54,157 nt of DNA. Origin: Terriglobia bacterium (GTDB lineage Bacteria > Acidobacteriota > Terriglobia > Terriglobales > Acidobacteriaceae). The notes below the pieces were generated by a model. That model had not been told where the DNA came from. It worked only from the letters and a program-made list of their open reading frames with translations, and ran no database searches. Positions 6,138-52,012 of this stretch are shown here, piece after piece. The DNA is taken from positions 1 to 54,157 of the forward strand of contig JAJPHW010000032.1 in assembly GCA_021325035.1 (NCBI GenBank), read 5' to 3'. The position numbers and the translations under genes are program-made. Numbering within the stretch: the stretch's first letter is position 1; every line of letters begins with the position of its first letter.

Positions 6138-6841
6138 TGGCTCAGGTCACTGAACACCGCCGCATTTTGGTTGTGGACGATGAACCGCAAATCACCCGCG
6201 TGTTGCGCACCAGCCTATCGAGTCAGGGGTACGACATCCGCGTAGCGAATGACGGCGAGACCGCTCTGGAAATCATGAAAGACTGGTCGCCGGAGTTAAT
6301 CATCACCGATTTGTCTATGCCGAACATGGATGGATTGGAGTTGTGCCGTCAACTACGACCAAAATCACAAGCACCGATCATTGTTTTGTCGGTGAGAGGA
6401 CAAGAGCGCACAAAAGTAGAAGCGCTCGATGCCGGAGCGGATGATTACATCACCAAGCCATTCGGAATCGAAGAATTGCTGGCCCGTGTCCGGGCTAACT
6501 TGCGGCGCGTTCCCGCGGCTGGCGATGGTCAGCCGACTTTGATTGAGATTGGAGATTTCCGTATAGATCTGTCCGCACACAAAGTGTGCGTGAATCAACG
6601 TGAAGTGCATCTCACTCCGAAGGAATTTGATTTGCTTGTATATCTCGCGCGTCATGCCGGGAAAGTTGTCACCCATCGCGCCTTGCTCGCTGCAATTTGG
6701 GGTGGGCAAAGCACCGAGCAAGTTGAATATCTTCGTGTGTTTGTAGGCCAGCTACGCAAGAAACTGGAGCCAGACTCCCTCTCACCTCGTTATATAGTTA
6801 CAGAGCCATGGGTCGGATACCGCTTCGAACCGGGGCAATAG
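6137..6841 (+). CDS. kdpE: KdpE response regulator (OmpR family)
   Basis: This is a 234-residue DNA-binding regulator. The receiver domain has the acidic pair VDDEP, phosphoacceptor D58 in IITDLSMP, and the conserved lysine in DDYITKPFG. It is followed by an OmpR/PhoB winged helix with LTPKEFDLLVYLARH and VEYLRVFVGQLRKKLE. The sequence is typical of KdpE, the activator of the kdp operon under potassium limitation. The start is GTG at 6137, sharing its first base with the stop of the KdpD N-half (TAGTG). The porin-kdpFABC genes begin 177 bp downstream and are the obvious target. Confidence 0.93.
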   Translation: MAQVTEHRRILVVDDEPQITRVLRTSLSSQGYDIRVANDGETALEIMKDWSPELIITDLSMPNMDGLELCRQLRPKSQAPIIVLSVRGQERTKVEALDAGADDYITKPFGIEELLARVRANLRRVPAAGDGQPTLIEIGDFRIDLSAHKVCVNQREVHLTPKEFDLLVYLARHAGKVVTHRALLAAIWGGQSTEQVEYLRVFVGQLRKKLEPDSLSPRYIVTEPWVGYRFEPGQ

Positions 6842-7018
6842 TATGCCATTCGTCATCAGCGAATAAAGAGTTCCTACCCCTCAACACCTGCCATTTTGTC
6901 TTTACGAATTCCTTATGAACTATTAACCCCACTTTTACGCTCAAAGATTTTTAATCGAAGGTTGCGCTAATGAAGGATTGGGACTCTATTTCATCGTCAG
7001 ATATGAGGAGAACTCATT
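6842..7018 (+). promoter_or_regulatory. Leader/promoter region of the porin-kdpFABC operon
   Basis: This 177-bp gap is AT-rich in its middle. A weak sigma-70 candidate is TTGTCT (6896-6901) with TATTAA (6921-6926), spacer 19. Two TTTACG-type elements (6901-6906 and near 6934) flank the -10 region and could be KdpE half-sites; this is speculative. A clear Shine-Dalgarno sequence, GAGGAG, lies just upstream of the GTG at 7019 and fixes the porin start. No terminator is visible after kdpE, so read-through from kdpDE is possible. Confidence 0.35.
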
Positions 7019-8689
7019 GTGCTAAATCGTAGTGTTTTCAAACCAAGGTTCGAGCTGCGGAGCAATTCTCGTGGGATTTTATTTGTAATTCTTGTTTTCT
7101 GTTGGATTCCGATTCACGCTCAACAAGCTAGCGACGCTACAGACGGCCGGACGACAGCAAATCCCCAGGCCGGTAACGCAAACCAAGCGGTACTGCAAGA
7201 GTTGGATGCGATGAAAAAACGCATCGAACAATTGGAGTTGCAACTCAGGCAATATGAGGCTGCACCGCCGCCAAAAACAGTCGTGCAGACGGCGAAGGCA
7301 GCTACCCCTTCTGCGGTTCCCCCGGCCAAGATGGTTGAAAACTCGTCAAGCTCCACTGCCGATGTTGCCGTCACTGAAACGAGTACGGATACAGGCGGCA
7401 AGCGAGCCAAGGAAGAGCCCTTCGCTTTTGCGGACTGGACGTGGCTCAACGGAAATCCTCGCACAATTACGCCGGCCTTTGACTCCAAGTTCTTTACGCC
7501 GGAGATTCGTGCTGATGTTGCCTACCACTACGACTTCAATCATCCCCAGGATGACACGATTGTCGGTTCGAGCGAAGTATTTCGTTCGAACGAAGTCAGC
7601 TTGACGCATTTAGGCATCGGTGGAGATTTTCACTACGACAACGTACGCGCTCGCGTGATGAGCCAGATCGGGCTCTATTCGACGGCCACGCCTCGCAACG
7701 ATGCCAGCTATTCCCGTGGCCAATGGGATTTAGCGGATGCCTATCGTTACGTGACTGAAGCTTATGGCGGCTATCACTGGGATGCGATGCACGGCGTTAA
7801 CGTAGATGCAGGCATTTTCTTGTCCTACATTGGTCTCTTCAGTTTCTACAACTTTGACAACTGGGCGTATCAGCCTTCCTACGTGTCTTCGAACACGCCG
7901 TGGTTCTTCACTGGCTTGCGAATTCAAACCTTCCCCACCAAGAAGTTGAAGATTGAGCCGTGGATTATCAATGGATGGCAATCCTATGGCCGTTATAACG
8001 GCCGTTTAGGTTTTGGCGGGCAGGTTCTCTATCGGCCGAATGGTCGCGTCTCGATGCTGACAAACAATTATGGTGCGGGCTCCGACGCTTTGGGTCTTCC
8101 ATCGCGCACGCGCTATCACACCGACAACAGCCTCGAAGTGAAGTATTATGACCACCCCGAAAAGTTTCTTGACAAAATGGCGTTCAGCCTCACCGGTGAT
8201 GCCGGCTGCGAAAGTGGCGGTGGCGTGAATTGCACCACGAACCAGAAAAACGCCGCCAAACAAATCACTTCGTACAAACAAAGCTTTCTGGGTTACATGA
8301 TCTACAACCGTTGGTGGTTTAACAAAGACCGTGAGGGTTTCACGCTTGGGGGCGGCAAAATCAACAATCCAGGCCGATACCTCGTACTGCTGCCGCCTAT
8401 CAATGGCGCGACGGCTACATCGGGAACACCGTACTTCACTGAAAACCCCGGTGATCCCTACAAGGCCTGGGACATGTCGGCAACCTACGACTACATGCCC
8501 AGCCAGTACATCACTTTCCGGTGGGAATTTAATCATCGCCACGCCAATGTGCCTTACTTCAGTGGCCCAGGCGGAGTTACTCCTCCGGGAGGAAACACAG
8601 GAGCTCCAGGATCTGAAGTTCCGGGGTGGTCCCCGGATCTTCGCCACACGGAAGACCGCGGGACGATGGCAATTCTGGTGAAGTTCTAA
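7019..8689 (+). CDS. Outer-membrane beta-barrel porin heading the kdp operon
   Basis: This 556-residue exported protein starts at GTG behind a strong ribosome-binding site. A signal peptide (hydrophobic segment GILFVILVFCWIPIHA, cut near residue 35) is followed by a coiled-coil stretch around residues 60-85 (LQELDAMKKRIEQLELQLRQ) and a Pro/Ala linker. About 400 residues of alternating aromatic and polar strands follow, rich in Tyr, Trp and Asn, typical of an outer-membrane barrel. It ends in ILVKF, with the terminal aromatic residue common in barrels. The coiled coil suggests a trimer. It lies 20 bp before a small membrane gene and kdpF, in the same direction, so it probably supplies an outer-membrane route for potassium feeding KdpFABC. 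That role is inferred from position. Confidence 0.82.
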   Translation: MLNRSVFKPRFELRSNSRGILFVILVFCWIPIHAQQASDATDGRTTANPQAGNANQAVLQELDAMKKRIEQLELQLRQYEAAPPPKTVVQTAKAATPSAVPPAKMVENSSSSTADVAVTETSTDTGGKRAKEEPFAFADWTWLNGNPRTITPAFDSKFFTPEIRADVAYHYDFNHPQDDTIVGSSEVFRSNEVSLTHLGIGGDFHYDNVRARVMSQIGLYSTATPRNDASYSRGQWDLADAYRYVTEAYGGYHWDAMHGVNVDAGIFLSYIGLFSFYNFDNWAYQPSYVSSNTPWFFTGLRIQTFPTKKLKIEPWIINGWQSYGRYNGRLGFGGQVLYRPNGRVSMLTNNYGAGSDALGLPSRTRYHTDNSLEVKYYDHPEKFLDKMAFSLTGDAGCESGGGVNCTTNQKNAAKQITSYKQSFLGYMIYNRWWFNKDREGFTLGGGKINNPGRYLVLLPPINGATATSGTPYFTENPGDPYKAWDMSATYDYMPSQYITFRWEFNHRHANVPYFSGPGGVTPPGGNTGAPGSEVPGWSPDLRHTEDRGTMAILVKF

Positions 8690-8709
8690 TTCTGACGAAA
8701 GGAACGCGT

Positions 8710-8796
8710 ATGCAAGACCTGATTTTTATCGCGCTGACAATCGTGCTCTTCACGTTCACTCTTGCTTATGTGTATGCATGTGAGCGCCTACGGTAA
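8710..8796 (+). CDS. 28-residue membrane peptide upstream of kdpF
   Basis: The reading frame codes for MQDLIFIALTIVLFTFTLAY followed by VYACERLR: one hydrophobic helix of about 20 residues with a short basic cytoplasmic tail. A strong Shine-Dalgarno AAAGGA (8698-8703) sits six bases before the ATG. It lies between the porin stop and kdpF in a tight operon. The size and shape resemble KdpF, but KdpF itself is the next gene, so this is a second single-helix peptide. A role in assembling or stabilising the Kdp complex is an inference from position. Confidence 0.72.
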   Translation: MQDLIFIALTIVLFTFTLAYVYACERLR

Positions 8797-8809
8797 AGGA
8801 TTTATGGAA

Positions 8810-8893
8810 ATGAAAACGATCGCTTTGCTGGTGGTGTGTATCTTCTTGCTGATTTATTTGGGCTATGCGCTTTTGCGGCCTGAGAGGTTCTGA
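8810..8893 (+). CDS. kdpF: KdpF, small subunit of the potassium-transporting ATPase
   Basis: This 27-residue peptide is one membrane helix ending in YLGYALLRPERF. That agrees with the KdpF C-terminal pattern (Tyr-x-x-Tyr-Ala-Leu...Glu-x-Phe). KdpF stabilises the KdpABC complex in the inner membrane. An in-frame ATG lies two codons upstream (8804). AAGGA at 8796-8800 is only three bases from 8804 but nine from 8810, so 8810 is preferred. The stop is two bases before kdpA. Confidence 0.85.
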   Translation: MKTIALLVVCIFLLIYLGYALLRPERF

Positions 8894-8895
8894 GC

Positions 8896-10671
8896 ATGAC
8901 CATGAATGGGTGGATTCAGATTATCGTTTTTCTGGGCGTGATTTTTCTGATCGCCAAGCCGCTGGGCATATTCATGGCGCGGGTGTTTGATCGAGAAAAA
9001 ACATTTCTCGATCCCGTTTTGCGGCCGGTGGAACGGATTCTCTATAAGTTGACGGGCGTAAACGAATCGGAAGAAATGAAATGGGGCGAATACTGCATCA
9101 GCATGCTGATTTTCAGTCTCGTTTCCATGCTGGTGTTGTATCTGATCCAACGGGGACAAGGGCTACTTCCATTTAATCCTCAAAAACTAGCGGGGGTTGC
9201 GCCCGATCTGGCATTCAACACTGCGGCGTCATTCAGCACCAACACCAATTGGCAGTCCTATACGCCCGAAACAACCATGAGCTATTTCACGCAGATGGCG
9301 GGGCTGGCATATCACAACTTTATGTCCGCGGCCGTCGGGATTGCGCTGGCCATCGCTTTCATACGCGGCGTTGTGCGTCGTGAAAAAGAAACCATCGGCA
9401 ATTTCTGGGTGGATATGACTCGCGCCACCCTTTGGATTCTTCTGCCCATGTGTTTCATTTTTGCATTGGCACTGGTATCGCAGGGCGTCGTGCAGAATTT
9501 TCGGGCATACGACACAGTGAAATTGCTGGAGCCCCAGCATATCCAAAAAACCGGAGCGGACGGCAAAGCAGTAACACAAACAGTTAGTGAGCAAGTGATT
9601 GCGCAAGGGCCGGTGGCTTCGCAGGAAGCCATAAAGATGCTCGGTACCAACGGAGGCGGATTTTTCAACGCTAACAGTGCGCATCCTTTTGAAAATCCCA
9701 CGCCCTTTTCGAATTTTCTTCAGATGCTTGCGATTTTCGCCATCCCCGCCGGGCTTACTTACACGCTGGGAATAATGACCGGAGCAAAGCTGCACGGCTG
9801 GGCAGTTTGGTCCGCCATGGCGATTCTTTTCCTCGCTGGAGTGACAGTTGCATATTGGGCGGAGTCTCAGGCAAATCCTTTATTGCATGGGGTAGATCAA
9901 CACGCCACCCTGATGCAATCCGGTGGAAACATGGAAGGAAAGGAAGTTCGCTTCGGCATTGCGGACTCAGCCCTGTTTGCCACGGTAACAACTGACGCAA
10001 GCTGCGGAGCCATAAACGGGGTGCACGATTCCTTCATGCCTCTCGGAGGCATGGTGCCGTTGGTGAACATCATGCTCGGCGAAGTTGTGTTTGGTGGGGT
10101 TGGTTCCGGCCTTTACGGAATGCTTATCTTTGTCGTTCTGACTGTCTTTATTGCCGGGCTTATGGTTGGACGTACGCCAGAGTATCTGGGTAAGAAAATC
10201 GAAGCCTATGACGTAAAAATGGCGATGCTGTCAGTATTGATTTTTCCGCTTACGGTGTTGGTATTTACAGCAATCTCATCGGCCGCGCCATCGTTCGGGA
10301 CATCGGCGACTTCAAATTCCGGCCCGCATGGTTTGACCGAAATTCTCTATGCCTACACTTCTACGGTCGGTAACAATGGCTCGGCTTTTGCAGGCCTCAG
10401 CGCGAACACCCATTGGTATAACGTCTCACTTGGTATCTCCATGATTTTTGGCCGGTTTCTGGTGATTGTCCCTATGCTGGCAATTGCGGGAAATCTTGCG
10501 CAGAAGAAAGCAATTCCGCCGTCACTGGGCACATTTCCGGTTACGACTCCTCTTTTTACGCTTCTGCTGGTGTCGGTGATCGTGATCGTCGGCGCATTGA
10601 CTTTTTTCCCGGCGCTCAGTCTCGGGCCCATTCTTGAACACTTACTGATGAATGCCGGAAAAGCATTTTAG
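8896..10671 (+). CDS. kdpA: KdpA, potassium-binding channel subunit
   Basis: This 591-residue polytopic inner-membrane protein is of normal KdpA length or slightly longer. The four selectivity-filter loops are visible: [46 protein letters not shown] and [12 protein letters not shown]. KdpA selects and conducts potassium, with transport driven by KdpB. It follows kdpF by two bases. kdpB begins seven bases after its stop. Met3 (8902) is an alternative start. Confidence 0.97.
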
Positions 10672-10678
10672 GAAGACG

Positions 10679-12715
10679 ATGACACAGACAAAGAAATCAT
10701 CTTCGCAGAGTATGTGGAACGGCAAGATTGTCCGCCGCGCTCTAGTGGACTCGTTGATAAAGCTAAGTCCGCGCACCATGATGCGGAACCCTGTCATGTT
10801 CGTGGTCGAAGTGGGCAGCATACTCACGACCTTGCTGCTGTTGCAGGACAAAACTACCTTTTCTTTTAATTTACAAATTACGCTGTGGCTTTGGTTTACG
10901 GTCATCTTTGCAAACTTTGCAGAGGCGATGGCAGAGGGCAGAGGCAAAGCGCAGGCGGAAACACTTCGTAAAACCAAGTCAGAGACAGTTGCTCACAAAC
11001 TACTGGAAAAAGGCGGCATACAAGACATTCCCAGTTCAGTTTTGCGGTTGGGAGACATCGTTCTGGTTTCCGCCTGCGAATTTATTCCGGGCGATGGCGA
11101 AGTCATTGAAGGAGTTGCGAGTGTCGATGAGTCGGCGATTACGGGGGAATCCGCGCCGGTAATTCGCGAAGCAGGCGGCGATAGATCGGCCGTGACAGGG
11201 GGCACGCGGGTTTTGTCGGATCAGATCAAGGTGCGAATTTCGTCGAATCCCGGGGAAACATTTCTCGACAGAATGATCGCATTGGTAGAAGGCGCAGAAC
11301 GGCAGAAGACCCCAAACGAAATCGCGTTGAATATCCTGCTCGCCGGGCTGACGATTATCTTTTTACTGGCCGTTGTAACGCTACAGCCCTTCGCGATCTA
11401 TTCTGGGTCCCCGCAAACTGTCTTTGTTTTAGTTTCGCTGTTGGTCTGCTTGATTCCCACAACGATAGGCGGATTGCTCTCGGCGATTGGCATCGCCGGC
11501 ATGGACAGACTCGTGCAACATAACGTGCTTGCCATGTCGGGGCGAGCGGTCGAAGCCGCAGGCGACGTGAATACCTTGCTGCTGGATAAAACCGGAACTA
11601 TCACTCTGGGGAATCGCCAGGCCGCAGAATTTATTCCCGCGCCGGGCATTCCTGCCGCGCAGATGGCGGATGCCGCCCAGCTTTCCTCGTTGGCGGATGA
11701 AACTCCGGAGGGAAGATCCATTGTTGTCCTAGCGAAGAATAAATATGGGTTGCGAGGCCGGGAACTTGCCTCTCACGAAGCTGAATTCGTTCCGTTCAGC
11801 GCTCAAACCCGCATGTCTGGCGTAAATCTTGATGGCCGGGAAATTCGCAAAGGCGCCGTGGATTCAATTTCAAAGTATCTAAATCAGCATGGAACCAGCA
11901 TGCCCCGCGAAGTTGTAAATGTTGTCGAGAATATTTCTCGCTCCGGAGGCACGCCGTTAATTGTTGTTGAAAACCGGCGAGTGCTGGGGGTGGTTTACCT
12001 GAAAGACATCGTAAAGGGGGGAATGAGGGAACGCTTCGACCATCTGCGCGCCATGGGCATTAAGACCGTTATGATTACTGGCGATAATCCATTGACCGCA
12101 GCTGCGATTGCCCACGAAGCCGGCGTTGACGACTTTCTTGCGGAAGCTACTCCAAAAGACAAAATGGATTTAATCCGGCGCGAACAGAGTCAGGGCAAGC
12201 TGGTGGCAATGACCGGCGATGGCACCAACGATGCACCCGCACTGGCGCAGGCTGATGTTGGAGTTGCCATGAACACGGGCACACAGGCCGCGAAGGAAGC
12301 CGGCAACATGGTGGACCTCGATTCCAATCCCACCAAGCTCATTGAAATTGTAGCGATCGGCAAACAATTGCTCATGACGCGCGGTGCGCTTACCACATTT
12401 TCGATTTCTAACGACGTTGCGAAATACTTCGCAATCATCCCGGCCATGTTTGCAGGAACTTTCCCGGTGTTGAATGCGCTCAACATCATGCACTTGCGAA
12501 ATGCTCAATCGGCAGTCCTTTCTGCCGTGATCTTTAATGCCCTGATTATCGTCGCGTTGATCCCACTTGCTTTGCGTGGCGTCTCTTACCGGGCGTTGAG
12601 TGCGGAATCGCTTTTGCGCCGCAATCTTCTTATTTATGGGCTCGGTGGCTTGGTAGTGCCATTCATTGGAATCAAGTTGATCGATCTGTTCATCACAAAA
12701 ATTAAATTGGTATAG
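10679..12715 (+). CDS. kdpB: KdpB, P-type ATPase catalytic subunit
   Basis: This 678-residue P-type ATPase has the actuator motif TGES (155-158), the phosphorylation motif DKTGT with Asp303, the hinge motif [17 protein letters not shown] and several membrane helices. KdpB hydrolyses ATP to drive potassium uptake through KdpA. The Ser of TGES, which in E. coli KdpB is an inhibitory phosphorylation site, is kept. The frame is open back to 10652, inside kdpA, but the ATG at 10679 has AGGAAG six bases before it and gives the usual N-terminus. kdpC follows after 11 bp. Confidence 0.97.
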
Positions 12716-41784: not shown

Positions 41785-43278
41785 ATGGCAACAAAAGCTA
41801 ATTCCGTGATGGACAAGCCGATGGAAGTGGGGCGACTGCTGATTGTCAGCACGCAGCCGTCGGATGTGCGTCCGATTTGGGATTTGGCTCGCGCGCGCGC
41901 TTGGCAGTGTGAAGCGGTGGCAAGTGCCTGGGAAGCTTTGGAACAGACTAAAACCGGCAGTTTTGACCTTGTATTGTTAGACTTACACGACTATGCAGAT
42001 GCTTTGCACACACTGCGTTGGCTGCGGTATGCAAGCCCAACTCTATCGGTTGTTTTGATCGCAAACTCTCACGATCACTGGGTCGAAACCGAAGCCCTGC
42101 GATTGGGAGCGCGCGCATGCTTACGGCACCCACTGCGGATGACAGACCTGGAGTCTATGCTTTCGCAAGACCATCCTTCAAAGCCGTCCGTGCTCAATTC
42201 CGCTCCCATGCCTGAACTCATTTGCGAGGCCATAGAGCGTTTTGGAGAAGATTTGTTTTTTGTTTGCGCCACGCCAGCCATGCAAAAACTGCGTGTTCAT
42301 GCTGAATCACTGGCCCAGGTGGACGCTCCGCTGTTGATTGTGGGCGAAGCTGGTAGCGGGAAAGAGTGTACGGCGCGCCTGATTCATCAGTTGTCTATGC
42401 GATCAGGATTTCCTTTTATCAAGATTGATTGCGCCGCGTATCCCGGCGATTTGCTGGAAGCGGAATTGTTTGGACCGGAAAATGGACATCCGGGAAAGCT
42501 GGAGCTTGCGGAAAAGGGAGTCGTATATCTGGAAGACGTCAGCGCCATGCCGCCGGCATTGCAAGCCCGGCTTCTGCAAGTGATGCAGGAAAAGAGTTTT
42601 ACGCGGGCGCACATTCGTGCCCATGGAAACGGCCGCGTTCGCGTAGAAGCGCGAATTTTAGCGGCGGCGAGTCCTGATGCAGAAGCCGCCGTCGCACAGG
42701 GACGTTTGCGCCGTGATCTCTACTATCGCCTGAGCGCCTTCAGCGTGCAGGTTCCTCCCTTGCGGCACTGCCGTGAGGGCATTCCGCTCTTGTTGGGATA
42801 TTTCATGAGCCGTATGGCCAAACAATATGGAATTCCCGGACGCACACTCTCGCCGGCGCTGTTGCAGGCCTGCCAGTCGCATCCCTGGCGTGGGAATGTG
42901 AGCGAACTGCGGGATTTTGCCAAACGTTATCTGGTTGTCGGCGATGAAGAACTGGCCTTGTGGGAATTGAAGAAGCACTCGGCCACGCAAACAGACGATT
43001 CCCATTCCGATCTGAGCTGGCATGTTGCCGAAGGTGGAATGCAAGGGACGCAAGCCGATGGTTTGAAGTCGCTGGTGCGGGACATCAAGGGCGAGACGGA
43101 GCGAAACGCCATCGCCAATGCACTCGAAGAAACTCACTGGAATCGCAAAGCGGCAGCCCGTTTGCTACGCATCAGCTACCGGACATTACTCTATAAAATT
43201 CAGTCGTATGCGATGACCCCACCCCCAGTACCCATGATCATGCGCCAAAGTATGAAACGGGATGAGAGGGCTGAATAA
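41785..43278 (+). CDS. Sigma-54-activator-like regulator lacking the GAFTGA loop
   Basis: This is a 497-residue protein. A receiver domain (about 16-130) keeps Asp66 in LVLLDLHD but has His in place of the usual lysine. The AAA+ domain has Walker A GEAGSGKE (187-194) and a Walker B-like VVYLED (246-251). A Fis-type helix-turn-helix ends the protein (NAIANALEETHWNRKAAARL). The L1 loop, which should read GAFTGA, is shortened to FGPENGHPGKLE, so contact with sigma-54 is doubtful. XrtA-type exopolysaccharide loci usually carry a PrsR-like activator; this may be a derived form. The frame also opens at TTG 41770. Its stop overlaps the next ATG by one base. Confidence 0.87.
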   Translation: MATKANSVMDKPMEVGRLLIVSTQPSDVRPIWDLARARAWQCEAVASAWEALEQTKTGSFDLVLLDLHDYADALHTLRWLRYASPTLSVVLIANSHDHWVETEALRLGARACLRHPLRMTDLESMLSQDHPSKPSVLNSAPMPELICEAIERFGEDLFFVCATPAMQKLRVHAESLAQVDAPLLIVGEAGSGKECTARLIHQLSMRSGFPFIKIDCAAYPGDLLEAELFGPENGHPGKLELAEKGVVYLEDVSAMPPALQARLLQVMQEKSFTRAHIRAHGNGRVRVEARILAAASPDAEAAVAQGRLRRDLYYRLSAFSVQVPPLRHCREGIPLLLGYFMSRMAKQYGIPGRTLSPALLQACQSHPWRGNVSELRDFAKRYLVVGDEELALWELKKHSATQTDDSHSDLSWHVAEGGMQGTQADGLKSLVRDIKGETERNAIANALEETHWNRKAAARLLRISYRTLLYKIQSYAMTPPPVPMIMRQSMKRDERAE

Positions 43279-43934
43279 TGACCAAAATGGGAATGACATC
43301 TTCAAGCAAGGCAAATTTTGCCGTGTTCAAACAGGCTCTCGCTATCGTTCTATTGCTCGGCGGAATGACGAGCGGCTCGTTGGCGCAGTCATCCGGCAAT
43401 GCGAATCCGCCGAGCCTGAGCCCAGTGGCAACTCCATCGGCACATGATGACAGCTATATCATCGGCGATGACGACGTGCTCAGCATCAATGTATGGAAAG
43501 AACCCGACGTCTCGCGCACTCTTCCCGTGCGCTCGGATGGAAAGATTTCTCTGCCCTTGGCTGGTGAAATCCAGGCCCGTGGACAAACTCCTCATCAAGT
43601 CGAAACAGCCATCGCCGAAAAGCTCAAGAATTTCATCGCTGAGCCAGTTGTGACCGTTATCGTCACAGAGATTAAGAGTCAGAACTTCAATATTTTGGGC
43701 GAAGTCAACAAACCGGGAACTTATCCCTTGAGCGGCGCAAGCACTGTACTGGACGCCATTGCGGTGGCTGGCGGTTTCCGCGATTTTGCCAAACAGAAAT
43801 CCATTTATGTTTTACGCCGCGATGCCAATGGCGGCGAGCAGCGGATTCCATTCAATTACAAGGACGTGATCAAGGGCGTGCACGCTGAACAGAACATCAA
43901 GCTGCAATCTCACGACACGATTGTGGTGCCGTAG
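43278..43934 (+). CDS. Wza-like polysaccharide export protein
   Basis: This 218-residue exported protein has a signal peptide (ALAIVLLLGGMTSGSLAQ) without a lipobox Cys. A Poly_export domain (YIIGDDDVLSINVWKEPDVS, VRSDGKISLPLAGEIQARG) and one SLBB domain (NILGEVNKPGTYPL, STVLDAIAVAGGF) follow. It is the outer-membrane or periplasmic export component of the exopolysaccharide system. It is shorter than Wza (about 380), as is normal for the EpsD/XrtA-linked type. It starts on the last base of the regulator gene. Confidence 0.92.
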   Translation: MTKMGMTSSSKANFAVFKQALAIVLLLGGMTSGSLAQSSGNANPPSLSPVATPSAHDDSYIIGDDDVLSINVWKEPDVSRTLPVRSDGKISLPLAGEIQARGQTPHQVETAIAEKLKNFIAEPVVTVIVTEIKSQNFNILGEVNKPGTYPLSGASTVLDAIAVAGGFRDFAKQKSIYVLRRDANGGEQRIPFNYKDVIKGVHAEQNIKLQSHDTIVVP

Positions 43935-43940
43935 AAAAGC

Positions 43941-45299
43941 ATGCGAAAGATACTTTTATTGCAGTTTTTCACCGCCTTGTTGGTTTCGGGTATGAATGTG
44001 GCGTATGCCCAGTCTGGCGCACCAGCGGCAGGAGCCGCGCCAGTGCTTTCCGATCGCGGAGACAACCAGGGAGCTTTATTGGTACCACCTCCCGTTGCTG
44101 GAACCAGCTACTCTCTGGCGTTTGCCACGGATGAGCGCAGCAACTACTTGAAGGGCGGAATTACGTTTCAAGCGAACCACGACGACGATGTGCTTACGGC
44201 ACCAAATGGCAGCACAGTAGCCGATTGGAGCTATTCCATTTGGCCTTCGATTGAGATAGACCAGAGTTGGCCCCGGTTTCACTGGCGGCTCGCCTATATG
44301 CCTGGGTTCACTTTTTATAACAATTTGACGTCATACAATTCGCAGGACCATAACCTATATATCGGCGGAGAGTACCGTTTGTCTCCGCACGTGACCCTGG
44401 GCCTGCGAGATTCTCTTCAAAGGACCTCTAATTTGTTCAACCAGCCGGTCTTCGGAGCGACGGGAACCATCAGCGGAGCGCCGCAGGGCCCAAACGACAC
44501 TATTGTGACGCCGATTTCCGATGTTTTGCGCAATACGGCAGGCGCCGATCTCACTTACCAATTTGGCCGCAATGACATGATGGGTGTTGGAGGGAGCGTG
44601 ACAAATCTACATTTCTTGAATGCTTCACAGGAGCAAGGGCTCTACGATGCGGCGGCCCGCGGCGGTTCCGCTTTTTATACCCACCGTTTTGCGGCGCGTC
44701 ATTATGTGGGTGTGAGTTATCTGTACCAACAATTGTTAACTTATCCGACAGGGGTCACGAACCAGACCACGACCGATGCGGTCATCGGTTTTTACACTTT
44801 CTATCCGAGGCGGACGTTGTCCTTCTCAATTTTTGGCGGTCCGCAATACGCTTCTACGCAGCAATTTGGCTCACCGGCGGTACAGCAGTGGAGTCCGGCA
44901 GCAGGCGCAAGCATCGGCTGGCAGGGAAGACATACGAGCGCGGCTGCGAGTTATATTCACATCATCACCGATGGCGGCGGTTTGCTGGGCGCGGTGCACT
45001 CCAATTCAGGGGCGCTGACCGTACGACGGCAGCTAACCAAGGTTTGGAGCGTGTCAGGACTGGCGAGCTATGCTAGCAACACCTTGGTGGATCCGACGCC
45101 TTTGTTAAATGACGGTGGACACACCATCGGCGGCAGCGTCTGGGTGGACCGCACTTTGGGCAAGCATTTCAGCGTGCAGGCCGGCTACGCGCACCTGCAT
45201 CAGAACTATGACAACGTCCCAGCGCTGGAGAGTGTGATTGGGCGTAACCGCGAGTGGATTTCCGTGAGTTATCAATTCACGCGGCCGTTGGGGCGATAA
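43941..45299 (+). CDS. Outer-membrane beta-barrel protein of the exopolysaccharide locus
   Basis: This 452-residue protein has a signal peptide (LLQFFTALLVSGMNVAYAQ). Many alternating strands follow, such as YSLAFATDERSNYLKGGITF, RFHWRLAYMPGFTFYNNL and FSVQAGYAHLHQNYDNV. The last residues (VSYQFTRPLGR) are barrel-like but not a terminal Phe. XrtA/PEP-CTERM loci carry a comparable barrel protein of unknown role. Its position between Wza-like and Wzz-like genes suggests export or secretion of the polymer. I cannot name a family with certainty. Confidence 0.75.
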   Translation: MRKILLLQFFTALLVSGMNVAYAQSGAPAAGAAPVLSDRGDNQGALLVPPPVAGTSYSLAFATDERSNYLKGGITFQANHDDDVLTAPNGSTVADWSYSIWPSIEIDQSWPRFHWRLAYMPGFTFYNNLTSYNSQDHNLYIGGEYRLSPHVTLGLRDSLQRTSNLFNQPVFGATGTISGAPQGPNDTIVTPISDVLRNTAGADLTYQFGRNDMMGVGGSVTNLHFLNASQEQGLYDAAARGGSAFYTHRFAARHYVGVSYLYQQLLTYPTGVTNQTTTDAVIGFYTFYPRRTLSFSIFGGPQYASTQQFGSPAVQQWSPAAGASIGWQGRHTSAAASYIHIITDGGGLLGAVHSNSGALTVRRQLTKVWSVSGLASYASNTLVDPTPLLNDGGHTIGGSVWVDRTLGKHFSVQAGYAHLHQNYDNVPALESVIGRNREWISVSYQFTRPLGR

Positions 45300-45308
45300 A
45301 GTTTCAGT

Positions 45309-46901
45309 ATGGCGCAAGAAATAGAAGAAAAAACGAGTGGTAATTTGGATCTCGGCCGCTACTGGGCATTGGCGCAACGCCGGTGGTGGTATTTTCTGCT
45401 GCCTCTGTTTGGCGGATGGGTACTGGTTTGGGGCGCAAGCTGGGTGCTGCCGCCGAAGTACAAATCCTCGACGCTGATTCTGGTCGAGCAGCCCACTATG
45501 CCGAAGGATTACGTCACTCCCAACGTGAATGACGATTTGCAGGACCGCTTGCAGAGCATTCAGCAGCAGATCCTGAGCCGCACGCGTTTGCTGCGCATCA
45601 TCGATCAGTTCAACCTCTACGCCAAGGATCGCACTCACCGTACGCCGGATGAAATTGTCGATCGCATGCGCAAGGATGTCGAAGTAAATCTGGTGCGCGA
45701 CGAAAGCCAGCGAGACGTTACGGCTTTTGTCGTGGCCTACTCCTCGCGCGATCCCAAGGTCGCGCAGCAGGTGACCACGGAACTTACCAACTTATTCATC
45801 AACGAAAACTTACAAACGCGGCAGCAGGAATCCGAAGACACGACGTCGTTTCTGGAAAGCCAGTTGGAAGAAGCCCGCAAAGCTCTGGCAGAACAGGAAG
45901 AAAAAGTCCGGGTTTTTAAAGACCAGCATCCGGGGGCATTGCCGACTGAGTTGCAGAGCAATATCCAGATCATGACCGGCCTGGAAAATCAGCTTCAGGG
46001 CGAGCAGGATGCGTTGAATGCCGCCCGTCAGCAGAATGCCTATTTGCAATCTCTGTTGACCCAGTATCACGGACTGCAAAAATCGAGTTCCACCGCAGGT
46101 GCGCCGGCTGGTGGCCTGAGTGCGATTGACCAGGAGCTAGCCAAAGAGCAGTCGCAGTTGGCTGATTTGAAGGCGCACTATACCGATCAATATCCCGACG
46201 TGCGCAAACTCCAGCAGCAGATTGCCGACACGCAAAAGTTACGCGCTCAAATGGTAAGTAATCTCAAATCGCAACCGGCTTCAGGCGATGCAACCACGCT
46301 CGATCCGGAGAGCAAAGATGACACCACGGTTGTGCAGCTGGAAGGCCAGCTACGCGCCAATCAATTGGAGATTACCAACCGGCAAAAGACCATTTCCGAC
46401 TTGCAGACGAGAGTGGGAGCTTATCAATCGCATCTGAGTCAAGAACCAATCGTCGAGCAGCAATTCACTGATCTGACGCGCGGCTATGAGCAATCAAAAG
46501 CCAATTACGACGATCTACTGAAAAAGAAAAACTCTTCGCAGATGGCGACGAGCCTCGAATTGCGGCAACAGGGCGAACATTTCAGTGTGCTGGATCCGCC
46601 GAGCCTCCCATTGAAGCCGGATTTCCCCAACCGCTTAAAGTTTTGCCTTTTTGGTTTGGGCATCGGCCTGGCATTGGGAACGGTGATCGCAGGGGGAGCG
46701 GAATATCTGGACGACCGCTTGCATGATGAAGCTTCGCTAAAGAAGTTATTGCCTGTGGCTGTTATTGCGGAAATTCCGCCTTTAAACACGGCGGCAGAAG
46801 ACGGCGTCAATCAGCAAAAAATGCGTTGGGCGTGGGTGGCGGCGGGAGTGGTGGGAGCTATCATCCTGGCAGGTTCAGCAGTAAGCTATTGGCGGGGCTA
46901 G
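45309..46901 (+). CDS. Wzz/chain-length determinant protein (XrtA type)
   Basis: This is a 530-residue inner-membrane protein. A first membrane helix (WWYFLLPLFGGWVLVWGASW) is followed by a periplasmic Wzz domain and a long coiled coil (about 170-400, LESQLEEARKALAEQEEKVR). A conserved Pro/Gly-rich stretch (LDPPSLPLKPDFPNRLKF) and a second helix come next. After that a cytoplasmic part leads to a further hydrophobic C-terminal helix (AAGVVGAIILAGSAVSYW). It controls polymer length together with the tyrosine kinase encoded downstream. No kinase domain is fused to it. Confidence 0.9.
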   Translation: MAQEIEEKTSGNLDLGRYWALAQRRWWYFLLPLFGGWVLVWGASWVLPPKYKSSTLILVEQPTMPKDYVTPNVNDDLQDRLQSIQQQILSRTRLLRIIDQFNLYAKDRTHRTPDEIVDRMRKDVEVNLVRDESQRDVTAFVVAYSSRDPKVAQQVTTELTNLFINENLQTRQQESEDTTSFLESQLEEARKALAEQEEKVRVFKDQHPGALPTELQSNIQIMTGLENQLQGEQDALNAARQQNAYLQSLLTQYHGLQKSSSTAGAPAGGLSAIDQELAKEQSQLADLKAHYTDQYPDVRKLQQQIADTQKLRAQMVSNLKSQPASGDATTLDPESKDDTTVVQLEGQLRANQLEITNRQKTISDLQTRVGAYQSHLSQEPIVEQQFTDLTRGYEQSKANYDDLLKKKNSSQMATSLELRQQGEHFSVLDPPSLPLKPDFPNRLKFCLFGLGIGLALGTVIAGGAEYLDDRLHDEASLKKLLPVAVIAEIPPLNTAAEDGVNQQKMRWAWVAAGVVGAIILAGSAVSYWRG

Positions 46902-46915
46902 ATTTAAGATAAAGC

Positions 46916-47917
46916 ATGTACAAAGAATATTTCCAACTGAAGCGCAACCCCTTCGAGATCACGCCCGATCCGTCGTTTTTGTTTCCTACGCGACGGCATA
47001 ACGAGGCGCTCGCCGCTCTCTATTACGGCGTTGAGCGGCGCAAGGGCTTTGTGGTTCTCACCGGCGAAGTGGGCACTGGGAAGACTTTGCTGGTGCGTTG
47101 CCTATTGCAATTGCTGCACAAGAGCAACATTGCGTACGCGTATGTCTTTAACAGCCGCTTGGATGGAATTGAGTTTTTGCGTTACATCGCCGCTGACCTT
47201 GGCCTTCCCGCTGCGGGCAAAAGCAAGGGTGAACTGCTCCTGTTACTCACGAATTTCTTAGTCGCCCGTTACGAAAAGAAGCAGACCACAGTCCTGGTGG
47301 TGGACGAAGCTCATCATTGCTCAGCGGAAGTGCTGGAAGAGATTCGTTTGTTGACCAACCTCGAAACTTCACAGGACAAGCTGCTGCAAATTCTTCTTGT
47401 TGGCCAGCCGGAGTTGGACGAAAAGCTCGACTCGCATGAACTGCGGCAACTCAAGCAGCGTGTGGCGCTTCGTTCGCAGTTGAAGTTTCTGAGCCTCGCC
47501 GATACTTCCGGCTACATTCAAAAGCGGCTGGAACTCGGCGGAGCACCACAGGAAATTTACACCACCCTGTTCCCGGAAGAAACCGTGCGTGTGGTTTATC
47601 GCTACTCGGGAGGCTATCCACGGCTCATCAATACCATTTGCGAGAATGCGTTGATCAATGCGTTCGCACGGCAAGTCAAAGTGATTCCCGCGGAAATTAT
47701 TGAAGAGGTAGCGGCAGATTTGCGCCTGGATGTCGCACCCGCGCCTCCAACCGCGCGAACGCAAGTCATTCCGCAAGACCGGTTATTACAAGCGGAGCAA
47801 GTCCTTTTGCAGCTACAGAGTTATTTGCAATCCATGCGGGCAAGCGAGCCGGGCGCGGCGAAACCGGTACCTTCGGTATTGCAGCCAGGATTCAAGCCGG
47901 GGACTTTTAAACAATGA
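46916..47917 (+). CDS. ExeA-like AAA ATPase of XrtA-type loci
   Basis: This is a 333-residue ATPase. The N-terminus FQLKRNPFEITPDPSFLFPT is the signature of the ExeA/XrtA-associated group. Walker A is GEVGTGKT (50-57), Walker B is VLVVDEAHH, and the sensor region includes LLVGQPELDEKL. These ATPases stand beside chain-length and kinase genes in exosortase-linked exopolysaccharide operons. The exact job is unknown. Its stop overlaps the kinase start by four bases (ATGA). Confidence 0.9.
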   Translation: MYKEYFQLKRNPFEITPDPSFLFPTRRHNEALAALYYGVERRKGFVVLTGEVGTGKTLLVRCLLQLLHKSNIAYAYVFNSRLDGIEFLRYIAADLGLPAAGKSKGELLLLLTNFLVARYEKKQTTVLVVDEAHHCSAEVLEEIRLLTNLETSQDKLLQILLVGQPELDEKLDSHELRQLKQRVALRSQLKFLSLADTSGYIQKRLELGGAPQEIYTTLFPEETVRVVYRYSGGYPRLINTICENALINAFARQVKVIPAEIIEEVAADLRLDVAPAPPTARTQVIPQDRLLQAEQVLLQLQSYLQSMRASEPGAAKPVPSVLQPGFKPGTFKQ

Positions 47918-48774
47918 GCCGCATTTTCGAAGCATTGCAGAAATCTTCGGCAGGGAAGGCGAGTGGGTTTTCCGATTTCGCTTCGGCTCTACAACTGGAG
48001 CCGCAGCAAACTGTTGAAACTGTTGCCGAACCGCAGAGCGCAGGAGAGCTGGACCAATTTCCCAGCCTGCATGTGGCGCTCGCCGGGGACAGCCGCTTGT
48101 TTTGCCTGACGCAGCGCGACAGCCTGGGCGCAGAGAAGTTTCGTTTTCTAGGGGTGCGGCTGCGGCAACTGCAGCAATCCCAGGCGCTCAAAAGAATTTT
48201 GGTGACCAGCACCATTCCGGAAGAAGGAAAGAGCACGATCTCGGGAAATCTGGCGACGACTCTGGCGCGTAAACGACAGCAAAAGGTATTGCTGATCGAT
48301 GGCGACTTGCGACGCCCCTCGCTCAACCGGCTATTGGGTCTGCATCACCTGCGGGGGCTTAGTGAATGGTTGCAAGGCGATGCAACTGCGGCAGAGCCGA
48401 TCTATCGCTTGGAGGAGCCGGGTTTCTGGTTTATGCCGGCTGGATCGCCTCCAGAGAATCCTCTCGATCTCATGCATCTAACTCGTTATGCAACATTAAT
48501 GGAGCGGCTCTCTGGATGGTTCGATTGGATTGTGATTGATACGCCTCCGGTGCTGCCGCTGGCAGATACAAGTGTCTGGGCCAAGTCAGCAGATGGCATC
48601 TTGCTGGTTACGCGCGAAGGCACAACGCGAAAGCGTGAGCTGCAACGTGGTTTGGCGGCGCTTGATGCCACGAAGTTATTGGGCGTGGTGATCAACAGTA
48701 CGCACAATACGGAGCATGACAATTACTATCAGCATTACGGTGCAGCAGCGAAGTCTTCACGCAGCGAACGATAG
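47914..48774 (+). CDS. CpsD/CapB-type bacterial tyrosine kinase
   Basis: This 286-residue cytoplasmic BY-kinase begins with MSRIFEALQK, common in this family. It has the Walker A variant TSTIPEEGKST (98-108), Walker A' LLIDGDLRRP (127-136) and Walker B WIVIDTPPVLPLAD. The C-terminus has a small tyrosine cluster (DNYYQHYG) as the likely autophosphorylation site. It acts with the separate Wzz-type partner (45309) to control polymer synthesis. A gap of 106 bp with no visible site follows before the next gene. Confidence 0.9.
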   Translation: MSRIFEALQKSSAGKASGFSDFASALQLEPQQTVETVAEPQSAGELDQFPSLHVALAGDSRLFCLTQRDSLGAEKFRFLGVRLRQLQQSQALKRILVTSTIPEEGKSTISGNLATTLARKRQQKVLLIDGDLRRPSLNRLLGLHHLRGLSEWLQGDATAAEPIYRLEEPGFWFMPAGSPPENPLDLMHLTRYATLMERLSGWFDWIVIDTPPVLPLADTSVWAKSADGILLVTREGTTRKRELQRGLAALDATKLLGVVINSTHNTEHDNYYQHYGAAAKSSRSER

Positions 48775-48880: not shown

Positions 48881-49414
48881 ATGGGGAAAGTCTTGAAGTC
48901 GCGTCCTCGTCAAAACACAAATCTTCGTCTGGTGCCGGCGCGGGATGAATCCGCGGCCGCACCGGAACTGTTGGCGGAATCTGCTTTTCATCGCATGATC
49001 GCCGTCGAGTGCAAAAGAGCGGAACGGTCGGGTAATCCCTGTCTACTGATGTTGCTCGATCCCGGCAATGGGCAGTTTACGGAGCGTAAGCGGCTAGCGC
49101 TGAATCAGATAGCGGAATCGCTGCCTTCGTTTACCCGTGAGACGGATGTGACCGGCTGGTATAAGCAAGGGCGCATCATGGGTGTGATCTTTACGGAGAT
49201 CAATGCCGAAGCTCTCGAATTCATTTTAAAAACCATGCTGGCACGATTGAAGCGCACGCTGAGCGCTGAAATGACCATTGACCAATTGAACCAGGTCAAT
49301 GTTTCTTTTGAGATGTTCCCCGAAAAACAGGAAAGCATGGAGCGAGGGAAAAAGGTGCGATCGCATTTGACGGTCGAATCATCGGACCGGCGCGAGACGC
49401 CCTCGGTTTCATAA
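48881..49414 (+). CDS. Stand-alone degenerate GGDEF-like domain protein
   Basis: This 177-residue cytoplasmic protein has no signal or membrane segment. Its core (about 28-145) matches the N-terminal domain of the sugar transferase at 50768. Shared blocks are FHxMIAxExKRxxRSGxPxL and RETDVxGxYKxGxxxGVxFT. These align by eye with the first strand and active-site strand of GGDEF domains (Arg-x-x-Asp before the GGDEF loop). The GGDEF residues are absent, replaced by GWYKQGRIMG. It can hardly make cyclic di-GMP. It may bind a nucleotide or pair with the sugar transferase. The next gene is seven bases away. Confidence 0.72.
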   Translation: MGKVLKSRPRQNTNLRLVPARDESAAAPELLAESAFHRMIAVECKRAERSGNPCLLMLLDPGNGQFTERKRLALNQIAESLPSFTRETDVTGWYKQGRIMGVIFTEINAEALEFILKTMLARLKRTLSAEMTIDQLNQVNVSFEMFPEKQESMERGKKVRSHLTVESSDRRETPSVS

Positions 49415-49420
49415 ACGAAC

Positions 49421-50701
49421 ATGAATCGGGAATACAAACCGAAATTTCTGATTGTTTCCACCGCCAGCTGGTTTCCCATTGCGCGCCTGGCCATGGCTCT
49501 GGCGGAGGCTGGATGCCGGGTGGATGCGGTATGTCCGCCACGTGATCCGCTATCGAAAACCGGCGTGGTGCAGCGGATCCATTTTTACAGCGGGCTTCTG
49601 CCGCTACGTTCCCTGGAGCGTGCGATTCAAAAGGCTCAACCTGATTGTTTGGTTCCCGGAGACGATCTCGCGGTGCGGCATTTGCACCGGCTCCATCAGC
49701 AGGCGAAAACCATGGGCGCTGCCGGGAAAGATATTTGTGCGCTGATCGAACGATCCTTTGGCGCGCCGGAAAGCTTTCCGATCATCGCGGCACGATCTGC
49801 TTTCATTGAGTTGGCGCAAAAAGAAGGAGTCCGGGTCCCGGAAACGGGAGTGTTGAACGATTTCGATGATCTTCGGAAATGGGCGTCAAAGCACGGGTTT
49901 CCGGCGATGCTCAAGGCCAACGGCACTACGGGTGGCGCCGGCGTGAAGATAGTCCGCAACCTCACTGAGGCGGAAGAGGCGTTTCGCACGTTGCAAGCGC
50001 CTCCTCTGTTGGCGCGGGCGGCAAAACGAGCGCTAGTCAATCAGGACAATTCGCTAATTTGGTCCTCACTGCTGCGCCGCCAGTCCGTTGTTAATATTCA
50101 GGGATACATCGCAGGACGAGAAGCCACGAGCGCGGTTGCCTGCTGGGAAGGGCGGGTATTGGCCAGCCTGCACTTCGAAGTATTACAGAAGGCGCATGCG
50201 TTCGGGCCGGCCACAGTAATGCGCAGAATTGAGCATCCAGAAATGACGGTGGCTGCCGAAAAACTGGTACGGCGGCTCAAACTCTCTGGGCTGCATGGTT
50301 TTGACTACATGATCGAGAATGGCAGCGAGAACGCTTATTTGATCGAGATTAATCCGCGGGCTACGCAGGTAGGACATTTGGCTTTAGGCCAAGGACGCGA
50401 TCTGCCCTCTGCGTTGCATGCGGCGGTTGCCGGACAAGCACTTGGGGCATCCAAAAAATTGACGGAAAACGATACCATCGCGTTGTACCCGCAGGAATGG
50501 GTGCGTGATCCGGAAAGCCCATATCTGAAATCTGCGTATCACGATGTGCCCTGGGCGGCGCCCGAGTTGATGCGCGCAAGCCTGCGTCTCCGTAATAAAC
50601 GCAGCAATCGTTTTTTTAGACCGATGGCAGATGCCGGCACAATATCCAGACCCTCCCCTGTTGTAAAACTCGCCAAATCCAACCGCGATTTGGACTTTTG
50701 A
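49421..50701 (+). CDS. ATP-grasp enzyme in the exopolysaccharide locus
   Basis: This 426-residue protein has an N-terminal Rossmann-like part (FLIVSTASWFPIARLAMALA). An ATP-grasp fold follows, with the ATP-binding loop LKANGTTGGAGVKIV and the metal/phosphate motif YLIEINPRATQVGH. ATP-grasp enzymes join a carboxylate to an amine or thiol through an acyl phosphate. Substrates are unknown. In this locus it may add an amino-acid or other acyl substituent to the polymer or its precursor. It is in tight order with the GGDEF-like gene (seven bases) and 66 bp before the sugar transferase. Confidence 0.83.
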   Translation: MNREYKPKFLIVSTASWFPIARLAMALAEAGCRVDAVCPPRDPLSKTGVVQRIHFYSGLLPLRSLERAIQKAQPDCLVPGDDLAVRHLHRLHQQAKTMGAAGKDICALIERSFGAPESFPIIAARSAFIELAQKEGVRVPETGVLNDFDDLRKWASKHGFPAMLKANGTTGGAGVKIVRNLTEAEEAFRTLQAPPLLARAAKRALVNQDNSLIWSSLLRRQSVVNIQGYIAGREATSAVACWEGRVLASLHFEVLQKAHAFGPATVMRRIEHPEMTVAAEKLVRRLKLSGLHGFDYMIENGSENAYLIEINPRATQVGHLALGQGRDLPSALHAAVAGQALGASKKLTENDTIALYPQEWVRDPESPYLKSAYHDVPWAAPELMRASLRLRNKRSNRFFRPMADAGTISRPSPVVKLAKSNRDLDF

Positions 50702-50767
50702 TTGCACGTTCCCATGCAATCGCGGAATGACCTTAACCGCATTTAAGAAAGTGACGAAAGCTTGAGA

Positions 50768-52012
50768 ATGCAGACTTCTCCCCCTGCACAACCCACAATG
50801 ACTACATTCACCAATGAATTAACATGCGCTGCTTCCTCTCCGCGGAATGCAGAAATGGGAGATAAAGTCGTGAACACGCGCCACAGCAACACATTAGTCG
50901 CTCCATCATATGATCGCGCGCTCTCTGGCCGGGAGCCTGGCTTGGTTGACGAAGCTTCGTTTCACCAGATGATCGCACTCGAACGCAAACGCACAGCGCG
51001 TTCGGGTAAACCGTTTTTACTCATGATTCTCGAAGGAGAGTTGGGCCTTTCCCGCTCGCAGGGGGGCATGCTGAAGAAGATTTTGGGCGCCTTGTCGCTG
51101 TCCATCCGGGAAACGGATGTGGCTGGCTCTTACAAAGAAGGCTCTGCTATTGGGGTCATGTTTACCGAAATCAGCAGTGAAGACCGGGAAGTCACGGTCA
51201 ACTCCATGATGAACCGTATCTACCAAACTCTGCGTAGAAACCTGAACTGGGAGGAATTCGACCAGATCAATATTTCCTGGCACGCGTTTCCGGAAGACTG
51301 GCACCAGGGAACGCTACGAGGCAACCCTGTGCTTTATCCCGATTTAGCACGACGCGAGCGCGCGCAAAAGCCATTTCGAGTTTTGAAGCGCGCCATGGAT
51401 ATTATTGGCAGCGGCGGAGCGCTCCTGTTGTTTTCTCCCATGCTGCTTCTCGTGGCTGTTTTGGTGAAGCTCAGTTCGAAAGGCCCAGTCTTGTTCAAGC
51501 AGCAGCGTTTGGGCCAATTCGGGAAGCCTTTTACTTTTTTGAAATTCCGTTCCATGTATGTGGACAACCACCACCACATTCACCGCGAGTTCATGAAGGG
51601 CGTTATCAACGGCGAATTGCATGATAAAGACAAAGGGGACGGACACAAGGATGTCGTCTATAAAATGACCGACGATCCGCGCATCACGAAAATCGGAAAG
51701 TTCCTGCGCCGGACCAGTCTCGACGAACTGCCTCAGTTCATGAACGTCCTGCTCGGCGATATGTCACTGGTAGGGCCGAGACCACCGATCGCTTACGAGT
51801 TCGAGGAGTACGATATCTGGCACCGTCGGCGGGTTCTTGAAATCAAGCCGGGCATTACCGGTTTGTGGCAGGTAAACGGACGCAGCCGCGTGCGTTTCGA
51901 CGACATGGTACGCCTTGATCTGCAATATGCGCGCAGCTGGTCGTTATGGCTGGACATTCAAATTTTGCTGCGTACGCCGGCAGCGATTTTGCTGGGTAAC
52001 GACGCGTTTTAA
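50768..52012 (+). CDS. Undecaprenyl-phosphate sugar-1-phosphate transferase with N-terminal GGDEF-like domain
   Basis: This is a 414-residue protein. Residues about 60-180 are the degenerate GGDEF-like domain also found in the gene at 48881. The C-terminal part is a bacterial sugar transferase: one membrane helix (DIIGSGGALLLFSPMLLLVA), KFRSM, DELPQFMNVLLGDMSLVGPR and GITGLWQVNGRS. It would start the repeat unit by loading a sugar phosphate on the lipid carrier. Usual family members have four N-terminal membrane helices instead; here the cytoplasmic GGDEF-like domain replaces them. ATG 50768 is preferred to the in-frame TTG 50762. Confidence 0.92.
   Translation: MQTSPPAQPTMTTFTNELTCAASSPRNAEMGDKVVNTRHSNTLVAPSYDRALSGREPGLVDEASFHQMIALERKRTARSGKPFLLMILEGELGLSRSQGGMLKKILGALSLSIRETDVAGSYKEGSAIGVMFTEISSEDREVTVNSMMNRIYQTLRRNLNWEEFDQINISWHAFPEDWHQGTLRGNPVLYPDLARRERAQKPFRVLKRAMDIIGSGGALLLFSPMLLLVAVLVKLSSKGPVLFKQQRLGQFGKPFTFLKFRSMYVDNHHHIHREFMKGVINGELHDKDKGDGHKDVVYKMTDDPRITKIGKFLRRTSLDELPQFMNVLLGDMSLVGPRPPIAYEFEEYDIWHRRRVLEIKPGITGLWQVNGRSRVRFDDMVRLDLQYARSWSLWLDIQILLRTPAAILLGNDAF

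Follow-up and report, generated by a model that had tools for sequence, protein, structure and literature searches.

A 54,157-nucleotide contig of Terriglobia bacterium (JAJPHW010000032.1 of assembly GCA_021325035.1), referred to here in its whole length as the window, raises the question of why an enzyme of exopolysaccharide synthesis carries a domain resembling a diguanylate cyclase, and why a second copy of that domain is encoded on its own close by. The two proteins concerned, one of 177 amino acids (aa; P0001) and a sugar transferase (P0002), belong to an exopolysaccharide cluster of XrtA/PEP-CTERM-like type that starts on the plus strand at 43278. The answer proposed in this study is that the shared domain may be a receptor for cyclic di-GMP (c-di-GMP) acting on the first step of polymer synthesis.

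The shared domain and the transferase carrying it

The original prediction held that the two proteins share two sequence blocks lacking the GGDEF residues, and this was borne out on both counts: the first block reads FHRMIAVECKR in P0001 and FHQMIALERKR in P0002, the second reads RETDVTGWYKQGRIMGVIFT and RETDVAGSYKEGSAIGVMFT, respectively, and the GGDEF residues are absent from both proteins. P0001 and the N-terminal part of P0002 (about residues 35-190) are 37% identical over 160 aa (BLASTP, E 4e-30), ruling out chance similarity. The genes had been described as three genes apart, whereas a single gene, encoding an ATP-grasp protein, lies between them. Within the source genome, a search with P0001 matched at these two places only (E <= 10), and a profile of 21 family domains (A1) added one weak match, in a 1140-aa frame also matched by the GGDEF model.

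Sequence profile, predicted fold and fold comparison all back the description of the domain as a degenerate GGDEF domain. Against the PDB, the family profile gave a sole match below 0.001, to the GGDEF chain of GcbC (5euh, E 8.7e-7), and the next seven matches (E 0.0016 to 0.036) were all GGDEF or cyclase entries. Across the phylum the profile also has weak matches to GGDEF proteins, which were taken as ordinary GGDEF proteins and excluded from the family counts; in the 11 that were checked, RxxD falls on the RETD of the family in 11/11 and GG[DE]EF is present in 9/11. The AlphaFold2 (AF2) model of P0001 has predicted local distance difference test (pLDDT) scores of 82-95 in its core blocks (residues 31-150), with one block at 68, and a predicted order of helix, strand, helix, strand, strand, helix, short helix, strand. 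A structural comparison with diguanylate cyclases had been asked for beforehand, and by both methods used the predicted fold is of GGDEF type: Foldseek returned 38 rows at E <= 0.001, all GGDEF-domain entries (best 6khu, E 2.7e-6), and VIA gave Z 13.0 to 6khu over 120 residues and Z 9.2 to PelD, with rows 1-49 of the 50 listed being GGDEF-domain proteins and row 50 being AbiA (Z 8.6). Fold and profile homology together place the domain in the GGDEF superfamily. With PF00990, P0001 scores 14.7 bits, below the cut-off of 23.8; no Pfam or NCBIfam family was found above cut-off for the domain, and the 21 members gave only stray sub-threshold Pfam matches in one or another member.

P0002 carries the catalytic domain PF02397 (E 1.2e-66) and just one hydrophobic cluster, which begins near residue 212, as in a monotopic phosphoglycosyl transferase (monoPGT). 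With a 19-residue window, its hydropathy reaches at most 0.68 in residues 1-200, versus 2.35 at residue 219 in the catalytic membrane segment, and the traits of large monoPGTs that were looked for, a PF13727 match at E <= 1 and an N-terminal hydrophobic segment, were both absent. These results agree with the earlier proposal that the domain stands in place of the usual N-terminal membrane helices, as does the comparison with related enzymes. When the P0002 catalytic domain was searched against 61 genomes, all 18 matches of at least 266 bits were found to carry the domain, the next match scoring 215 bits, and the domain is present in 0/12 further transferase loci (two matches of similar score without a locus were left out). 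Eleven of those 12 loci encode two to five N-terminal hydrophobic segments, with PF13727 in 4/4 scanned, and the twelfth encodes a small enzyme.

The domain-transferase fusion is a family. In a tree of 30 catalytic domains the fused ones group together, the exception being a transferase without the domain (L145) that is weakly placed inside the group, and this tree would allow the fusion to have arisen once. The family profile matches 19/396 genomes of the phylum at E <= 1e-12, P0001 matches 20/61 relatives at E <= 0.01, and the union of both is 36 genomes. At the loci inspected, the domain is either stand-alone or ahead of a transferase, with one locus (L071) ending at the contig edge; L071, L104, L105, L109 and L110 are cut loci or have broken frames. 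A contig scan with two patterns yielded 24 loci whose titles name Acidobacteriota alone, and no relatives were found in viral contigs searched with single-protein patterns or in plasmids searched with P0001.

Lost and retained motifs and a candidate receptor

Residue counts refer to 67 collected domain sequences, or to the 64 distinct rows that remain after identical ones are merged, numbered as in P0001. GG[DE]EF is found in 0/67 sequences (one of which ends before the motif position); the stretch aligned with it is mostly G-W-[YHF] followed by a variable loop, and, relative to cyclases, about six residues are missing between strand 1 and the following helix. Retained in the family is RxxD, the motif of the c-di-GMP inhibitory site (I-site), which had gone unnoticed in the original prediction: R86 and D89 are each present in 63/64 rows and jointly in 62/64, including both copies of the window. 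This gives the earlier suggestion of a nucleotide-sensing domain a more specific form, that of a candidate c-di-GMP site. The residues of an E/R/R helix motif, E43-x-x-R46-x-x-R49 in P0001, are present in 64/64 rows each, and residue 122 is basic in 62/64. The family also has near-constants of its own, T88 (60/64), G92 (63/64) and W93 (63/64), whereas in cyclases of the same genomes position 88 is variable and position 93 is R in 40/40 aligned segments. Position 94 is Y in 51/64 rows and H, F, L, C or M in the others. At 51128-51130, P0002 has S instead of the signature W.

As judged from alignment and model, R49 is probably the counterpart of R198 of WspR, which belongs to the secondary I-site. 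VIA sets model residue 29 on residue 178 of the Pseudomonas aeruginosa WspR chain, bringing R49 to 198 if a gapless helix is assumed, and the profile comparison with Pseudomonas syringae WspR aligns an arginine from this E-x-x-R-x-x-R helix motif. The tabled match to 3bre covers 37 positions on 36 residues and holds a gap of unseen placement, and a short 36-position profile meant for P. aeruginosa WspR returned no GGDEF chain and two chance matches only. In WspR, R198 is reported to be supplied by a neighbouring domain and to complete the I-site, and R198A and R242A proteins to be essentially nucleotide-free on purification (PMC2270323). If R49 is the equivalent residue, the site would operate between two domains. 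As a lead, the spacing of residue 122 to D89 is 33, compared with 32 for R402 to D370 in PelD.

The mechanism proposed here begins with a domain that would be a catalytically dead GGDEF domain with its I-site kept (RxxD and helix arginine). To judge from these residues it somewhat probably binds c-di-GMP, and would do so as an intercalated dimer bridging two such domains. Binding would then set the activity or the oligomeric state of the fused monoPGT, with the first sugar-phosphate loaded on the lipid carrier only at high c-di-GMP; such control, suggested by analogy, is evenly balanced between true and false in our estimate, and its sign is, like binding and pairing, something that we infer. 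The stand-alone copy would be a domain duplicate taking the other half of the bridge, as helper or competitor. Such hetero-pairing with the P0002 domain is doubtful, and the pairing and the role as antagonist or adaptor put forward in the original prediction are conjectural. Equally tentative is the idea that, with a dead cyclase fused to a transferase and a free duplicate in a messenger-bridged heterodimer, the ratio of the two proteins sets a tunable threshold or acts as an off-switch.

Each half of this proposal has precedents. PelD, BcsE, YdaK and PssE are reported as I-site receptors that promote exopolysaccharide production (PMC8461298, PMC7439463, PMC5422440, PMC4125290). PelD of the Pseudomonas Pel system is likewise a degenerate GGDEF protein of an exopolysaccharide system with an RXXD I-site, and is reported to bind c-di-GMP with R367, D370 and R402 (PMC8461298), but it is membrane-bound, contains a GAF domain and has no transferase fused to it. 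YdaK of Bacillus subtilis, the function of which reportedly requires RxxD (PMC5422440), and PssE of Listeria monocytogenes, reported to bind two c-di-GMP with a dissociation constant (Kd) of 0.79 uM (PMC4125290), are degenerate GGDEF proteins with RxxD encoded in exopolysaccharide operons; both are separate proteins (YdaK membrane-bound), whereas here a soluble domain sits on the initiating enzyme. The catalytically dead, soluble REC-GGDEF* of BcsE in enterobacterial cellulose synthesis is reported to bind dimeric c-di-GMP via RXXD and a partner protein as well (PMC7439463), but acts on the cellulose secretion assembly and has a different architecture. The family to which both window copies belong shares three traits with this receptor class: it has lost GG[DE]EF, has kept RxxD just upstream of that position, and is encoded in an exopolysaccharide cluster.

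Control of the initiating enzyme is also known. In WbaP and other large monoPGTs (four transmembrane segments, a PF13727 domain of unknown function (DUF) and PF02397), a non-catalytic domain stands ahead of the same catalytic domain, and the N-terminal DUF of WbaP is reported to sense uridine nucleotides and to support dimerisation (PMC10942596); the N-terminal domain of P0002 is, however, unrelated to it. In Myxococcus xanthus, EpsW, a stand-alone receiver encoded in the eps locus, is reported to activate the transferase EpsZ post-translationally, and small monoPGTs can, according to the discussion of the same paper, bear receiver domains (PMC12802240). A stand-alone soluble signalling domain encoded beside the initiating transferase is common to that system and the window, although EpsW is a receiver rather than a GGDEF domain and EpsZ is a large monoPGT. 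With receptors such as YdaK, PssE, PelD and BcsE and control of initiating enzymes both known, an I-site receptor gating the transferase is the most likely explanation of the domain; taken whole, with the stand-alone copy as partner, it stands at about an even chance. The messenger is likely present: of the 35 other family genomes known, 32 were searched and 32/32 have GGDEF proteins, and in the source genome 14 frames hold 15 GGDEF matches, alongside 24 PilZ matches and a single EAL match. This is a weak test because such proteins are common.

Several observations weigh against the receptor explanation. PF00990 stays under its cut-off in 21/21 members scanned, of which 3/21 match at E <= 1 (best E 0.015), and the full-length AF2 model of P0002 is too poor (pLDDT 60.9) to reveal a domain interface. 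The stand-alone and fused copies of the G430 pair (locus L085) both lack RxxD (REIE and SDID), which a receptor model must account for as a loss. The third I-site arginine of PleD, which we take to be R390, seemingly falls on T118 via the GcbC alignment, one helical turn before the basic residue 122. Additionally, in a baseline of 42 GG[DE]EF-bearing cyclase segments from the source genome and the 30 best-scoring GGDEF loci of other family genomes, a set selected by motif and consisting mostly of the best-scoring GGDEF of each genome, RxxD is present in 39/42 and arginines at positions 46 and 49 in 32/34 and 37/38 aligned rows. Because these residues are equally common in local cyclases, their retention is possibly in part structural or inherited; RxxD and the helix arginines are likely the ancestral state, and their presence alone is nothing special. 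The I-site argument therefore lies in their persistence (62/64 and 64/64) despite an erased active-site motif, alongside newly near-constant T88, G92 and W93.

Degenerate-GGDEF exopolysaccharide receptors and control of the initiating enzyme are thus both known already, and their joining is new within the literature searched, where no GGDEF domain on a phosphoglycosyl transferase was found in the titles or abstract openings of open-licence publications. How c-di-GMP controls exopolysaccharides has been well described for synthase-dependent systems, while understanding of the post-translational control of Wzx/Wzy pathways is reported to be incomplete (PMC12802240). If the proposal holds, an I-site domain on the initiating enzyme would directly link c-di-GMP to a Wzx/Wzy-type pathway, with the messenger acting on its first, carrier-lipid-consuming step, and would add to the PF13727 DUF and the EpsW receiver a further evolutionary way of protecting the lipid carrier that pathways share. 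With a soluble domain, few point mutations and a stand-alone partner, the system should be easily testable.

Alternative explanations and the stand-alone copy

The alternative that survives best, while unlikely, is that no nucleotide is bound and that the domain is a pairing or docking module, dimerising the transferase or tying it to the autokinase/export complex, with the stand-alone copy competing for or extending the docking. The near-constants T88, G92 and W93, not common to local cyclases, could mark a surface rebuilt for such a purpose; an autokinase gene is present in 26/35 and 23/24 loci of two neighbourhood sets, and WbaP dimerisation is reported to proceed mainly via the N-terminal DUF (PMC10942596). 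What docking by itself fails to explain, however, is the survival of R86 and D89 beyond the loss of the active-site motif.

It is rather improbable that the domain senses a different nucleotide (uridine monophosphate (UMP), a uridine diphosphate (UDP)-sugar, guanosine triphosphate (GTP) or the guanosine tetraphosphate ppGpp) and feeds back on the priming step like the WbaP DUF. GGDEF folds bind GTP, and the domain occupies the same place ahead of the catalytic domain as that DUF. The latter is the uridine-nucleotide sensor mentioned above, and full-length WbaP is reported to be inhibited by UMP (PMC10942596). The shortened strand 1-helix segment and the loss of GG[DE]EF speak against this explanation, the site that is kept being the c-di-GMP site.

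The stand-alone copy raises a separate alternative, about as improbable as the preceding one, namely that it is a functionless decaying duplicate, whatever the fused domain does. Among the 59 neighbourhoods inspected, or 56 without three contig repeats, a stand-alone copy lies beside the fusion in at least 7/56 loci (window, L091, L095, G430, G181, G377 and G054); several neighbourhoods end at contig edges, so that the counts are lower bounds. This rarity would fit decay, as would the divergence of the window copy (best identity 49%). The copies in L091 and L095 terminate in the linker which, in fused relatives, connects the domain to the enzyme, giving them the appearance expected of truncated duplicates, and in this one pair the ratio of nonsynonymous to synonymous substitution rates (dN/dS) is 0.24 for the stand-alone copies versus 0.13 for the whole fused proteins. 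The same 0.24 is, however, well under 1 and near the 0.22 of the fused domains, and the L091 and L095 copies are under constraint, though less than the enzyme. Furthermore, the window copy has an intact frame with E/R/R and RETD, and stand-alone copies span three taxonomic groups (f1, f6 and f67). Recurrence beside the fusion and purifying selection in one ortholog pair therefore suggest that the stand-alone copy is functional, without telling the kind of function. In a tree of 67 domains (64 different), including 8 stand-alone rows with the L095 copy (205 aa) among them, the window copy is on no supported branch, owing to the mere 123 columns available. The order autokinase, stand-alone domain, ATP-grasp is common to the window, L091 and L095, and in G430, G181 and G377 the stand-alone copy immediately precedes the fused gene. 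In G054 (L061), two stand-alone copies, at 2591-3034 (-) and 3432-3959 (+), lie beside one fused transferase.

Control through tyrosine phosphorylation of Y94 or the transferase by the neighbouring autokinase, with the GGDEF remnant a mere scaffold, is very unlikely: autokinase genes accompany most loci and Staphylococcus aureus CapM is described as activated by tyrosine phosphorylation (PMC12802240), but position 94 is Y in only 51/64 rows. Finally, despite the GGDEF fold, an active diguanylate cyclase in either protein was rejected, with GG[DE]EF in 0/67 sequences and W at position 93 in 63/64 rows versus R in 40/40 cyclase segments.

Gene order of the exopolysaccharide cluster

The source genome comprises 3.9 Mb in 232 contigs, and its named relatives are Acidobacteriota. 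The cluster runs from an export protein through a Wzz-like protein and an ATPase to a tyrosine autokinase, directly 3' of which follow P0001, the ATP-grasp protein and P0002; a FemAB-like protein and a glycosyltransferase are also present, and the matches of the cluster to XrtA-named NCBIfam models score under the curated cut-offs. For P0002, a TTG start was used, with an ATG two codons downstream as a possible alternative.

Table 1. Positions in the window of the cluster genes, the shared domain and its motifs.
Feature	Position	Strand	Remark
Remaining export genes of the cluster	43278..47917	+	four proteins starting 43278, 43941, 45309, 46916
Export protein	starts 43278	+	
Conserved protein, unknown family, taken for an outer-membrane protein	starts 43941	+	no Pfam match at 1e-5
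Wzz-like protein	starts 45309	+	
XrtA-associated ATPase	starts 46916	+	
Tyrosine autokinase of the exopolysaccharide cluster	47914..48774	+	directly upstream of P0001
P0001, predicted stand-alone degenerate GGDEF protein	48881..49414	+	177 aa; domain residues about 28-150
E43-x-x-R46-x-x-R49 helix motif of P0001	49007..49027	+	
RETD (R86-D89) of P0001	49136..49147	+	I-site RxxD position
W93-G101 of P0001	49157..49183	+	cyclase GG[DE]EF position
ATP-grasp protein	49421..50701	+	between the two domain copies; same place in L091 and L095
P0002, phosphoglycosyl transferase with predicted N-terminal degenerate GGDEF domain	50762..52012	+	416 aa from TTG
Predicted degenerate GGDEF domain of P0002	50939..51301	+	residues 60-180
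E74-x-x-R77-x-x-R80 helix motif of P0002	50981..51001	+	
RETD (R116-D119) of P0002	51107..51118	+	I-site RxxD position
Bac_transf catalytic domain (PF02397) of P0002	51386..51991	+	residues 209-410; SLDELPQ motif and own membrane segment

The ATP-grasp protein, the substrate of which is unassigned, also accompanies the cluster in L091 (3938-5161), L095 (2850-5150) and L104 (4056-5327); in these four cases, the window included, its gene is upstream of the transferase, and 3/4 have the stand-alone domain, while in L096, L100 and L102 it is downstream. In L095, the ATP-grasp gene and the transferase are separated by an aspartate kinase-like open reading frame (5147-6778, judged by its translation). 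Elsewhere in the window, a histidine-kinase-type protein with an N-terminal cyclic-nucleotide-binding domain (PF00027 with PF02518) is encoded at 335-1720 (-), and 5016-12715 is a kdp potassium-uptake region with a KdpD sensor domain accompanied by a Usp domain, with a BBP2 porin and KdpA, and with a P-type ATPase whose position identifies it as KdpB.

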